Below are positions 6,677 through 31,389 of a stretch of DNA of 32,839 nucleotides, piece after piece; position 1 is the first letter of the stretch, and every line of letters begins with the position of its first letter. The stretch lies in the IMG/VR virus record IMGVR_UViG_3300044628_000720, positions 1 to 32,839 of that record; one strand, written 5' to 3'. Below the pieces are notes generated by a model that was not told where the DNA came from, searched no databases, and saw only the letters and a list, made by a program, of their open reading frames with translations. The DNA is from a virus. The position numbers were made by a program, and so were the translations under genes.

Positions 6677-7438
6677 TTAGAGAACTGGGTAAGATTCTTC
6701 TTCGGTGAATTTCAAAAACCGCAAATTGAGATTGTCGTGACTGGCTCTGATCGCCTTGAGCCCTACGCCGCAAACCCATCGTGTGTTTGTCACACGAGCC
6801 CCGGCACTTCTTGCGTTTTGCAACGCTCGCGCAAGCAATCTTTGCGGCTCGTCAAATTTCAAAAGGTTTAGATCTCGAATCCATTGAGTTGCAAACGGTT
6901 CACCGTATTTTTTTGCCGCCAAATAATGCACGGCGGCCGCGATAGATCGCGGAACGAAATTTCCGCACTGACTAACATCAATGCTGTGCCGCAAATCTGG
7001 GTGTTTTTCTAAAAATGCCTGCCGTTGCAAAAATGTAAGTTGTTCCCGCCGTGGTCGGTTGTTCAAGATCATTTCCAGCGTCGTGATGGCGCTTGATAAG
7101 TCGTGGGAATGCCCTTCACCTGAGATTGCAAGCAAATCGGACGATGAACGCTGTTTTCCTAAATCAATAGTTGCAAAAGCCGAAGAACAGACACCTTCGA
7201 CAAACAAAGTGGAAATGGCCTGATTCGCAATAATCACAGCCATGCAACGGTGCTGACCATCAAGCAGATTGCCGTCAGTGTCTAAAATTATTGATTCGCC
7301 GTTTGCAGCCCATTCTCCGCGTGTAATCGCCGCTGCCAACACTTTAGCGCGTTTGACGCTCAGGGTGCGGTTGTTTGGGTTTTTGTCTAACAGCATCTGT
7401 GCAAGTGCTGGAGTAAGTGTGATTTGTGTTGCTTTCAT
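6677..7438 (-). CDS. ParB-like DGQHR-motif protein
   Basis: Residues 41-64 show GEWAANG followed by LLDGQHR (58-64), a signature of phage and bacterial proteins related in fold to ParB/DndB-type domains. Residues 90-94 read IDLGK, a conserved continuation in such proteins. The C-terminal half is helical and of unknown role. Members of this group bind or modify nucleic acids in some cases, but the function of this phage type is not established. The gene heads a run of recombination genes and is directly followed by the nuclease. The leader lacks a Shine-Dalgarno site. Confidence 0.7.
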   Translation of the reverse strand: MKATQITLTPALAQMLLDKNPNNRTLSVKRAKVLAAAITRGEWAANGESIILDTDGNLLDGQHRCMAVIIANQAISTLFVEGVCSSAFATIDLGKQRSSSDLLAISGEGHSHDLSSAITTLEMILNNRPRREQLTFLQRQAFLEKHPDLRHSIDVSQCGNFVPRSIAAAVHYLAAKKYGEPFATQWIRDLNLLKFDEPQRLLARALQNARSAGARVTNTRWVCGVGLKAIRASHDNLNLRFLKFTEEESYPVL

Positions 7439-8431: not shown

Positions 8432-8659
8432 TTAACGGGGCAGAGCGTTTGACATTGCGGCCCGGCGATCAGTTCCGAGCGCGCTAAACGATGCTGGTTT
8501 GCGAGTGCCATCGGGCAGAATGACGCTGCACTCAAAGCCCAGTTGCCAGCCGTAGGCATGGCGCTCGTTGCGGTAGTACCGAATGCTGCGCGGGTCAACG
8601 GTGCAGGTTCCGTGCGCGTAATGGTTGATGATCCAACGCGGTTTAATTGTCGTGTTCAT
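8432..8659 (-). CDS. Unknown 75-aa protein downstream of the hammerhead ribozyme
   Basis: I prefer the ATG at 8659 (MNTTIKPRWIINHYAHGTC) over an in-frame GTG at 8683. The protein is basic and beta-rich (YGWQLGFECSVILPDGTRKP). It is the first gene after the ribozyme; a cleaved transcript would start at 8726 and place this start about 67 nt from the new 5' end. No Shine-Dalgarno site is visible. I do not recognise the family. Confidence 0.6.
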   Translation of the reverse strand: MNTTIKPRWIINHYAHGTCTVDPRSIRYYRNERHAYGWQLGFECSVILPDGTRKPASFSALGTDRRAAMSNALPR

Positions 8660-8698
8660 GTCGTTTTTGGGTTTGTTGTTCACTCTCAGACGAAGGAC

Positions 8699-8748
8699 GG
8701 CCTCGTCAGCACCCGCCTTACGGGTGGACCCCCGGAGGGGTTTCGGCC
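8699..8748 (-). ncRNA. Type II hammerhead ribozyme
   Basis: Read on the minus strand, all hammerhead core elements are present in type II order. Stem II 3' strand GGCC (8748-8745) is followed by GAA (8744-8742). Stem III is A-CCCC/GGGG-T (8741-8737 with 8732-8728) closed by a UCCG tetraloop. The cleavage nucleotide C17 is at 8727. Stem I CACCCG/CGGGTG (8726-8721 with 8715-8710) has loop TAAGG. The conserved CTGACGA is at 8709-8703, then stem II 5' strand GGCC (8702-8699). Required A15.1-U16.1, C1.1-G2.1 and G10.1-C11.1 pairs are intact. Predicted cut is between 8727 and 8726. The element starts inside the TAG stop (8750-8748) of the upstream gene. The match is very strong; activity is untested. 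Confidence 0.9.
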
Positions 8749-9002
8749 TAATAAGTAGTCATTCCCAAGCTAACTCTCTGCCATGCTTTTTCGGGAGTGA
8801 ACCATTTGGCAAAGTGATTCAGCGTTTCTGTCACGCCCGGCAGTTTGACTGTCTCTTTGATGATGGCCGCTTTTGGCACCCAAACTGGAAAAGTCTTGTT
8901 TGCAGTGGAAATGCAACGCAGTTGAATCGCTTTTGCGGTTTCTTTGACGACTTCGTAGGACTCAGGGCTTGCACCGGCGGGGAAAATAATGATCGTTTCC
9001 AT
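8748..9002 (-). CDS. Unknown 84-aa protein upstream of the ribozyme
   Basis: I chose the ATG at 9002 (METIIIFPAGASPESYEVV) over a weak TTG at 9023. The body contains KAIQLRC and TFPVWVPKAAI, a pattern seen in small phage proteins of unknown role with a beta-rich fold. Its last stop base pairs in stem II of the hammerhead ribozyme, so ribosomes finishing this gene would cover part of the ribozyme. No function can be assigned. Confidence 0.6.
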   Translation of the reverse strand: METIIIFPAGASPESYEVVKETAKAIQLRCISTANKTFPVWVPKAAIIKETVKLPGVTETLNHFAKWFTPEKAWQRVSLGMTTY

Positions 9003-9034
9003 GGGACCAACTCTAGCCAGCAAACCGCGCTTTG

Positions 9035-9425: not shown

Positions 9426-9453
9426 AGCCTAGCAAAGCACGCTCCGCTGTCAA
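9426..9453 (-). promoter_or_regulatory. Putative early promoter next to a start codon
   Basis: On the minus strand a perfect -35 box TTGACA (9453-9448) is followed after 16 nt by TAGGCT (9431-9426), preceded by TGC as an extended -10. The -10 box matches the sigma-70 consensus in three of six bases. The ATG of the first early gene lies 6 nt further on, so transcription would begin at or near the start codon. Confidence 0.45.
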
Positions 9454-9572: not shown

Positions 9573-10175
9573 TCACTCTCCCCTCGGCACCAAACCAGAC
9601 TCAAACAACTGCGCTTCTTCGTCCCGCCTGCGTCTCAGCCCTTTAGAGTCAGGCCATAGCCGTTTCATTGCACGGATCTGCTCGGGAATGTGCTGCGGCT
9701 CATTCACTCGGAGCAATTCCTGAATCCTGAGCATCTCGCGCCGGCGGTCGCCGGTCAGGCTCGGGCCTCGGTTGAAAACTAGCGAAACGAGCGCCGCAGC
9801 GCAGTCGCCCGGCAGGTCCACCAGTTGCGGGTAGATCCTGAGCGTGCGCAGATACCACGTCGGCAACGTGACGTCCTCAAACACGGACAGTGCAGCCGCC
9901 CAAGGAATGGTGATGTGGCGCACGTACGGCAGCCGCGTCTGCGCCGCTTCTCCTTTGTGCCCAGAAACTCCGACCAGCGCGGCCATGGTCGAGCCGTCGA
10001 GGTACTGCCGCCATGCCCTGGTTGTCTCCGTTGCTGGTGTGTGCCCCAAATCCCACCCAACGCCAATAGTGATCCCAGACTTCTCGCCCGGCCATTCTGG
10101 CTGCGGTTCGTAAAAATGCTCGCCGCCGGTTTCCCAGCCGATGATGGCTTTTATGCCGCGTGGACTAAGATTCAT
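9573..10175 (-). CDS. Endolysin, phage lysozyme-like
   Basis: This 200-aa enzyme should cut peptidoglycan glycan strands at the end of infection. The N-terminus has the phage lysozyme layout: a glutamate in IIGWETGG (E15), then SGITIGVGWDLGH (33-45) with T36 and D42, matching the G-x-T-I-G-x-G motif of GH24/pesticin-type lysozymes. A later FNRGPSL motif (138-144) also fits such enzymes. There is no signal peptide, so it should need a holin. It is the last gene of the late block and overlaps the preceding gene by 11 nt. Confidence 0.85.
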   Translation of the reverse strand: MNLSPRGIKAIIGWETGGEHFYEPQPEWPGEKSGITIGVGWDLGHTPATETTRAWRQYLDGSTMAALVGVSGHKGEAAQTRLPYVRHITIPWAAALSVFEDVTLPTWYLRTLRIYPQLVDLPGDCAAALVSLVFNRGPSLTGDRRREMLRIQELLRVNEPQHIPEQIRAMKRLWPDSKGLRRRRDEEAQLFESGLVPRGE

Positions 10176-29643: not shown

Positions 29644-30169
29644 TAAGTTTGAGGATCTCCAGTCGACTGCGAAGTTTCGGTTGGATTTCCGTTTCGGTCA
29701 GTCCTGCCAACTGCCCCGGAAGATCATTTACCAGTGCGTCGAGTTCCGCGCACCAAGTTGCAACCACGCGGATTGTCTCCTCAACCACCTGTTCAACAGG
29801 TACCAGTCGCTTTTCGTCCTCAGCAATTTTGATGTCTAGTCGGCGGACCTCGCGTTCCAGCTTTTGCTTTTTGACGCCGTTAATGTCACCGGGCGTTGCC
29901 TGCTGTTCTTTTGAGTCGCGCCACTTTTGGATTCCTTCAATGGTTGTCCACGGCAAACCCGCTTTTGCCATCGCACGTTTCCACCGCAGTGCACCTGGGC
30001 GGCTGACACCAAAATGCGCGGCCACTTGCTCGAGCGTCAAATCCGGCAGTGTTCCAGCCTCATATGCGGCCACCATTGCCTGCTCTGCGCGGCTAATAGT
30101 TTTGCCTGCCTTTAGCTTGGCTAGGATGTTTTTAACCTGAGCCTTTGAGACTTGTTCGGTGAGGCTCAT
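29603..30169 (-). CDS. Terminase small subunit, Nu1-like
   Basis: The 188-aa protein has a helix-turn-helix (residues 45-66, LEQVAAHFGVSRPGALRW) followed by a charged coiled region (KKQKLEREVRRLDIKIAED) and a helical end, the plan of Nu1-type small terminases that bind the packaging site. It directly precedes the large subunit and starts within the methyltransferase stop (ATGA at 30169). An N-terminal extension in frame is not needed. Confidence 0.8.
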   Translation of the reverse strand: MSLTEQVSKAQVKNILAKLKAGKTISRAEQAMVAAYEAGTLPDLTLEQVAAHFGVSRPGALRWKRAMAKAGLPWTTIEGIQKWRDSKEQQATPGDINGVKKQKLEREVRRLDIKIAEDEKRLVPVEQVVEETIRVVATWCAELDALVNDLPGQLAGLTETEIQPKLRSRLEILKLNARASFEHHTSST

Positions 30170-31389
30170 TTTGCAGCGGCCATTTCGTTGAAGGTCTTTC
30201 CCGTTTCCGCGTGCGTCGCAGTCTTGCCGGTGAAGTCCTGCCAGCGCTTGACAATTACATCGCAGTATTTCGGGTCGAGTTCCATCAGCCGAGCTAAGCG
30301 GCTGGTTTTCTCGCAAGCAATTAGCGTCGAACCTGAGCCACCAAAGAGGTCTAAGGTCAAATTAACCTTGTGATTCCCCATTGCGCGTTCTGCTAGGGCG
30401 GTCGGCTTTTGCGTTGGGTGATGTGAGTTTTTGTGATCCCTGCTTACATCCCAAACTGTTACTTCATTGGTGGGGCCGTTCCAGTTTGGAGCGTTGCCTT
30501 TCTTGAACGCGTAAATGCACGGCTCATGCTTTGATTTGTACTGTGCTCCAATGGCTCCAAACTGAGCGACGTTCTTGTTCCAAATGATCCAGCACCGAGT
30601 TTGATACCCCGCTTCAGCAAGACCTTCCATCACATCAAGAGCAAAACGGTCAGCAAACCAGATGTAAATTGGCGCTTCATCTTTTGAAACCATGTACGCG
30701 TTCTTTACAGGAAGGTCGTACATATTGACGTCGTCGTCGTTCTTCAGCTTGTCCCGCCGCTTCTCTGTTGCATGACCTCCGTCGTAATCGACCCCGTAAG
30801 GCGGGTCAGTGAAAACCATGTCTGCCTTTTCACCGTCCATCAGCTTCTCTACGGCGTCAATGCTTGTGCTGTCCCCGCACATCAGCCGGTGATTGCCCAG
30901 CGTCCAAATGTCCCCAACAACCGTTACTGGGTCTTCTGGCACTTCTGGCACATCGTCAGGGTCGGTATTTCCTTCAATCACTTCTACAGACATCAGTGCT
31001 TTGAGTTCCTCTTCACTAAACCCCGTCAGTTCCAAATCAAAGCCAGCCTCGTCTAGTTCCTGTAGTTCCAACTTTAGAAACTCATCATCCCATCCGGCGT
31101 TTAGTGCCAGTTTGTTGTCTGCAATAACATAAGCCCGCTTTTGCGCATCAGTTAAGTGCCCGAGTCGAATACACGGCACTTCCTCAATTCCAAGTTTGCG
31201 AGCTGCCAACACGCGGCCATGCCCTGCGATAATGTCGTTGTCAGTTCCAATGAGCACCGGGTTAGTGAATCCAAACTCCCTGATGCTGGCGGCAATCTGC
31301 GCAACCTGCTCGTCTGAGTGCGTGCGAGAATTGCGAGCGTAGGGAATTAACAAGCCAAGGCTGACTTGCTCTAGTTTTGGTCCTGCCAT
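30166..31389 (-). CDS. ParB-domain fused DNA methyltransferase, beta class
   Basis: Residues 4-110 form a ParB/sulfiredoxin-like domain (IIAGHGRVLAARKLG, 53-67). The methyltransferase part has TDPPYG (194-199) as catalytic motif, HPTQKP (324-329) and DLFGGSGST (347-355) as the SAM-binding motif, in the beta-class order, so it should make N6-adenine or N4-cytosine. No restriction partner is nearby, so it is an orphan enzyme, probably protecting phage DNA or marking it for packaging. It opens the late block and lies next to the small terminase. Its ATG is 6 nt from a putative -10 box. Confidence 0.9.
   Translation of the reverse strand: MAGPKLEQVSLGLLIPYARNSRTHSDEQVAQIAASIREFGFTNPVLIGTDNDIIAGHGRVLAARKLGIEEVPCIRLGHLTDAQKRAYVIADNKLALNAGWDDEFLKLELQELDEAGFDLELTGFSEEELKALMSVEVIEGNTDPDDVPEVPEDPVTVVGDIWTLGNHRLMCGDSTSIDAVEKLMDGEKADMVFTDPPYGVDYDGGHATEKRRDKLKNDDDVNMYDLPVKNAYMVSKDEAPIYIWFADRFALDVMEGLAEAGYQTRCWIIWNKNVAQFGAIGAQYKSKHEPCIYAFKKGNAPNWNGPTNEVTVWDVSRDHKNSHHPTQKPTALAERAMGNHKVNLTLDLFGGSGSTLIACEKTSRLARLMELDPKYCDVIVKRWQDFTGKTATHAETGKTFNEMAAAK

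Follow-up and report, generated by a model that had tools for sequence, protein, structure and literature searches.

Type II hammerhead ribozymes were published from phages and prophages in 2011 by Perreault et al. (PMC3088659), who reported that the prophage copies cluster around single genes and proposed a part for them in transcript processing. Type II relatives were active both in vitro and in E. coli, and for HHphage, the hammerhead variant of the haloviruses HF1 and HF2, a 5' end was mapped no more than 3 nt from the cleavage site (PMC3088659). A later review (2017, PMC6155905) described the association of hammerheads with small non-conserved ORFs and listed their role in phages as open. 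The preliminary description of the element considered here was right that type II hammerheads are already known from phages, and it missed the processing role proposed for them in 2011 (PMC3088659). Beyond that report, we describe three properties: the seating of the ribozyme on a stop codon as a rule, an alternative pairing of the catalytic strand (hereafter the anti-core) that covaries with it, and, in this phage family, an upstream gene that is replaced by unrelated ones while the junction of TAG and ribozyme stays. In the accessible parts of the open-access literature alone we found neither the seating on stop codons nor a covarying anti-core mentioned, which is weak evidence of novelty.

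The window (the whole stretch of DNA analysed, 32,839 nt) is a 32.8-kb virus record in which nearly all genes lie on the minus strand. Its structural genes (terminase, portal, head, tape measure and fibre-like proteins) are followed in order by a metallophosphoesterase, a lysozyme-like protein and a block of small genes, after which come junction-endonuclease-like, ParB-like (6677-7438; our reading, as its own PHROG has no function), exonuclease, resolvase and primase genes. The ribozyme is placed within the small-gene block, between the lysozyme-like lysis gene (9573-10175) and the recombination/replication genes. There it nearly fills the 64-nt gap between an 84-aa gene upstream (U1, minus strand, 8748..9002, by gene call), which occupies a variable slot, and a 75-aa gene downstream (D1, minus strand, 8432..8659), for which no known family was matched and whose likely start, ATG 8659, is conserved in the relatives L031 and L010. 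Just upstream of U1 runs a promoter-like sequence, AAAGCGCGGTTTGCTGGCTAGAGT (minus strand, 9010..9033), that is conserved in relatives regardless of the U1 they carry, and a motif search located a second one, TTGACA-16-TAGGCT, upstream of the small-gene block (minus strand, 9426..9453). The early operon that had been proposed for this region is thus plausible, if unproven: the small genes do stand behind two promoter-like sequences, but a generic sigma-70 promoter scan around the site gave zero matches. No tRNA was found in the window, annotated phages yielded no DNA relative of it, and a host search through similarity to ribozyme-bearing bacterial genome loci gave no match. A CC0196 match at 25602-25549 fell below the cut-off and was considered chance. 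Close to the terminase gene, 30166-31389 encodes a protein whose first third matches ParB-like families and whose remainder matches DNA methyltransferase families.

Read on the minus strand, 8749-8699 is A GGCC GAA ACCCCUCCGGGGGU C CACCCGUAAGGCGGGUG CUGACGA GGCC. A conserved 5' flanking A (8749) is followed by the first strand of stem II (GGCC, 8748-8745), the GAA core segment (8744-8742), the stem III hairpin (ACCCC-UCCG-GGGGU, 8741-8728), the cleavage base C17 (8727), the stem I hairpin (CACCCG-UAAGG-CGGGUG, 8726-8710), the catalytic strand (CUGACGA, 8709-8703) and the second strand of stem II (GGCC, 8702-8699). The core is that of a hammerhead (CUGANGA and GAA, with H17 after the U of stem III), and the order of elements, in which stems I and III are closed and stem II is open, is that of type II. 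Judged by its sequence, 8748-8699 is a type II hammerhead, and the predicted cut, after C17 in the hammerhead fold, lies between 8727 and 8726 (minus strand). Both the completeness of the ribozyme and this cut had been proposed beforehand, and both agree with our results, since every core element is in place on the minus strand, the relatives covary, and the predicted site is the one expected from the fold. The interval first assigned to the element (8699-8748) ends too early, as the element also takes in the A at 8749 and, on its 3' side, the sequence down to about 8689 (8699..8749 being the ribozyme with its flanking A).

A covariance-model search, which the preliminary description had suggested, recovered the type II family (RF02276) over model positions 1-66 of 66, with 29.3 bits and E-values of 0.037 (all Rfam) and 8.5e-6 (single family). 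The family was found, yet under its gathering score of 37, which is a curator's threshold and no feature of the molecule; a model of our own, built from 46 sequences, scored the window at 67.1 bits, a partly circular value given that the window was included. The score below the gathering threshold is what could be held in favour of a chance resemblance with no active ribozyme behind it. Scanning viral contigs and bacterial genomes by pattern, with the stem II sequence fixed, returned at least 364 distinct type II hammerheads in at least 237 loci. A strict descriptor matched 401 times in the 2.7 Mb of fetched loci versus once in the identical sequences reversed, which served as its chance level (the 401 is not a density, because the loci were fetched by similar patterns). 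Chance resemblance is excluded by this contrast (401 versus 1), and together with the covariation and the conserved position it leaves the idea of an inactive look-alike very improbable.

Covariation was assessed in a 46-member alignment. Pairing holds in 99.9% of cells, as against 31-42% in slid controls; 156 cells are compensatory (doubly changed), 13 of the 16 pairs have changed on both sides, and the covariation score reaches 0.597, versus 0.12 in shuffled and <0.1 in slid alignments. Three helices around the core, maintained by compensatory change, are a hallmark of a hammerhead, and they are found here. Stem III is capped by a GNRA or UNCG tetraloop in 136/200 cases (among the matches listed), and the base preceding stem II is A in 90% of the 364 listed. 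Together with the loop I consensus GUNANGC, this A at -1 hints at a tertiary contact that is conserved and differs from the published pseudoknot.

The genomic surroundings of the class are likewise regular. With genes called by a simple script of our own around 254 intergenic ribozymes (among the matches listed), 209 lie between two genes of the same direction, and the start codon follows at a median of 26 nt past stem II. All copies share one strand in 60 of the 61 multi-copy loci listed, spaced at a median of 620 nt, most often with a single called gene in between. Of the 48 whole records that gave a match, 33 are single-copy and the richest has eleven copies within 5 kb. A constant neighbour gene was considered and rejected, as 1436 neighbour proteins (among the matches listed) fell into 840 clusters, none of them dominant. 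Two accumulations stand out. Locus L012 (889-5156; 2576-7559 in the whole record G005) packs eleven same-strand type II hammerheads into 5 kb, with about one small gene between neighbours and an anti-core in none of the eleven tails. Locus L160, on the chromosome of the cultured planctomycete Singulisphaera sp. GP187, has at least five in 8 kb and may offer a laboratory test bed.

Stop codons were located independently of any gene caller (as ends, near the ribozyme, of ORFs of at least 150 nt). In the window the final G (8748) of the U1 stop codon TAG (minus strand, 8748..8750) doubles as the opening base of stem II, and the A before it (8749) is the conserved A; the overlap had been noticed earlier, and it proves to be the modal form in phages. 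Among the 346 listed ribozymes the stop overlaps stem II by one base in 82 (72 of them TAG), it abuts stem II in 49, and it ends 1-4 nt before stem II in another 109. Given these positions the arrangement in the window is the commonest one, and the conserved A is commonly provided by the stop codon itself. Expressed per upstream-gene family, 175.8 of 258 (68%, among the matches listed) end within -4 to +1 of stem II, whereas a shifted-position control gives 6.6%. No stop occurs at +3 to +15 in the 346 listed, a range in which the ribozyme sequence itself restricts the possible stops. A TAA in loop I of the window (8720-8718, minus strand) is the next in-frame stop after read-through of the TAG, 30 nt on, and is probably coincidence.

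Ribosomes are of such a size that one terminating in the window's arrangement must cover stem II. In an extension of the idea put forward in the preliminary description, translation could gate the ribozyme: ribosomes terminating U1 at the TAG would hold it off by covering stem II, and on a poorly translated U1 it would fold and cut, with the anti-core as an off state preceding cleavage. We consider such a switch rather unlikely. Its appeal lies in a stop that in most of the type II phage ribozymes lies flush with the element or overlaps it, and that is maintained while U1 changes, but the dense gene packing of phages and the required A before stem II would give the same stops, the offsets range from +1 to -4, and the ribozyme may fold immediately upon transcription, ahead of the first ribosome. 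As packing alone could yield the geometry, ribosome coverage is at most a possible means of control.

The anti-core was missed in the earlier account of the element, as was the variable gene slot. Directly after stem II, 84 of the 364 listed ribozymes carry a stretch of 6 nt or more that is perfectly complementary to the catalytic strand CUGANG (e.g., CUGACGA GGCC GUCAG and CUGAUGA GGCC AUCAG), compared with about 2 when the tails are shuffled. Position N7 of the catalytic strand pairs with the base before UCAG in 92 of 99 cases (among the matches listed, which were not selected for a match at N7), and the two covary (C:G in 60, U:A in 31, and 7 mismatches among the 99). Double changes separate flank-homologous relatives (L032/L103, L070/L099, L262/L269) and also two copies within the phage L210; 40 flank-homology clusters contain zero mismatches, but their members had been preselected for the complement. 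A second recurrent tail, AGTNGYCTC or AGTNGCC, follows stem II directly without an anti-core (e.g., in L080, L018, L088 and L036).

The window has its own version of this pairing. Comparison with L093 and L031 reveals nine extra bases, CTTCGTCTG (minus strand, 8687..8695), that interrupt the usual tail (GTC|AGAGTGA) and give rise to a shifted 7-bp anti-core over the same catalytic strand; this alternative hairpin (GACGAGG-CCGUC-CUUCGUC, minus strand, 8689..8707) takes in half of stem II together with GACGA in the catalytic strand. L076, L328, L336, L346 and L360 have this tail as well, and we read the case as a pairing apparently retained despite the change in sequence. A pseudoknot between loop I and the tail of the window (AAGG:CCUU) was rejected, as it is broken in L328 and L360, which have the same tail.

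Fold predictions, which ignore tertiary contacts in both energies and pairing probabilities, place the two states close together: the window's anti-core is given -28.5 versus -28.1 kcal/mol for the ribozyme fold, and in anti-core-bearing ribozymes the quartiles of the difference between active and anti-core folds run from +0.3 to +1.9 kcal/mol, while tail-less ribozymes prefer the active fold. This near-equality is the further point in support of a translation-gated switch. In the predicted downstream product of cleavage, which consists of two adjoining hairpins, the core is paired at 0.85 in tail-bearing and at 0.44 in tail-less ribozymes.

A plainer account would have the ribozyme only split or process the messenger, with a stop position devoid of regulatory meaning and an anti-core that merely adds a stabilising 5' hairpin to the product. 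The flush positions match a minimal-spacing distribution and most ribozymes (among the matches listed) have no anti-core, as this account would have it. We nonetheless hold it to be unlikely, for the covariation at N7 links the tail to the catalytic strand, and a plain hairpin need not involve the core.

The upstream side of the ribozyme was studied in relatives of the window family that had been found through their exonuclease, independently of the ribozyme, and 49 of which reach far enough upstream. The ribozyme sits at the same junction in 38 of these 49, and the TAG is at +1 in 28 of 33 distinct junctions. The gene that ends there belongs to 20 unrelated families in 32 relatives; these unrelated slot genes have a common upstream flank and often common first codons (ATGACAACGAAC). 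Within the family, U1 is common to 1 of 33 comparable pairs and D1 to 13 of 29. Turnover of the upstream gene as a general rule was rejected, as the contrast is absent outside the window family. In the natural core mutant L309 (5129-5184, at the same junction) GGCC AAAA replaces GGCC GAAA in an otherwise intact ribozyme; in L303, L337, L314 and L335 a slot gene is present but the ribozyme is not; and L320, L321, L352 and L359 have neither, so that D1 stands directly behind the promoter-like element. No other Rfam RNA was found in the ribozyme-less relatives. A strict cassette, in which slot gene and ribozyme always travel together, was likewise rejected in view of L303, L337, L314 and L335, and is a tendency at most. 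As some relatives have the slot gene without the ribozyme and the core of L309 is mutated, the function of the ribozyme appears dispensable.

Such losses would suit a selfish or neutral relic, be it the marker of a recombination border or a passenger of accessory genes, whose cleavage is functionless for the phage. The mutated L309, the several relatives without the element, the prevalence of single-copy records (33/48) and the recombination of U1 genes with common flanks at the junction would all fit. A complete ribozyme at the junction in 38 of 49 relatives, an intact core and strong compensatory changes in the stems are hard to reconcile with it, and we deem a relic improbable.

The reading we prefer, at a probability of roughly 0.55, is that of a natural insulator which splits the transcript downstream of a slot for accessory genes. 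Acting after the U1 stop codon and ahead of the D1 start, the ribozyme would divide the phage messenger in two, and because type II hammerheads are open at stem II, the cut would fall between two closed hairpins, leaving that of stem III at the end of the U1 messenger and that of stem I, with a 5'-OH, at the beginning of the D1 messenger (a downstream product already envisaged in the preliminary description, and supported by the predicted cut position). Bacterial mRNA decay that depends on the 5' end is disfavoured where this end is base-paired and bears a 5'-OH. D1 would thereby get an identical short structured 5' leader whatever gene precedes it. Before the cut the anti-core pairing would compete with the active fold, and after it the anti-core would close a second hairpin beside stem I, holding the products apart. 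We put the anti-core as a product lock, rather than an off-switch, at slightly better than even.

The sequences establish the core, the fold with its covariation, the position, the variable neighbour gene and the complementarity with its covarying N7, whereas cleavage in the phage, insulation of D1 and locking of the product are inferred. The complete core with its Rfam match, the placement between genes of the same direction, the flush stop, the copies kept on one strand, the retention at the junction (38/49), the compensatory stems, the two-hairpin product, the relatives in which D1 directly follows the promoter-like element when slot gene and ribozyme are absent, the published activity of type II relatives and the engineered analogue RiboJ all speak for the insulator. 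To its detriment, some relatives lack the ribozyme or, like L309, have a mutated core, an anti-core about as stable as the active fold could, on the predicted energies, hinder rather than help cleavage, the Rfam score lies below the gathering score, and the variable slot is no rule outside the window family. More tentatively (we find it possible but doubtful), there would be a widespread class of phage hammerheads in which a covarying anti-core flips the catalytic strand from active ribozyme to closed hairpin and back, and in which this anti-core and the built-in stop would join translation, cleavage and product refolding into one switch that insulates interchangeable accessory genes. Given the stop seating, the covarying alternative pairing and a junction at which nature supplies intact, mutated and missing copies, the open question of what phage hammerheads do can be turned into concrete tests. 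If the insulator reading is true, the anti-core would also be a simple route to irreversible or switchable self-cleavage.

Measured against the known systems, the element is closest to the published type II family (RF02276, PMC3088659), with which it shares the permuted fold, the core, the (pro)phage location and the occurrence of multiple copies that may flank single genes. It differs from the published form in a stem II that is usually of 4 bp, in the conserved A before it and in the loop I GUNANGC; and while the published consensus has a pseudoknot between loop I and the tail in the majority of members (PMC3088659), complementarity of the two is here at chance level among the matches listed. 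HHphage of HF1 and HF2 is similar in being a hammerhead variant 13 nt before the start of a phage gene in an early-gene region, and unlike the window ribozyme in its variant core and archaeal host (PMC3088659). The theta ribozymes of gut phages (PMC10879173) are also small self-cleaving phage RNAs with a precisely placed cut; they have an HDV-like fold and cut at tRNA ends, not behind the stops of messengers (PMC10879173). The nearest functional counterpart is RiboJ (PMC6206723), an engineered sTRSV-derived hammerhead with an added hairpin, of satellite RNA origin and set behind a promoter, whose self-cleavage leaves a fixed hairpin 5' leader that isolates the gene. By its position ahead of a start codon and its predicted product fold the phage ribozyme may work in a similar way; it is of type II, stands behind a stop codon and employs the catalytic strand for its second hairpin, and we claim no common descent. 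Should the phage ribozyme indeed act as an insulator, phages would have evolved what synthetic biology built as RiboJ.
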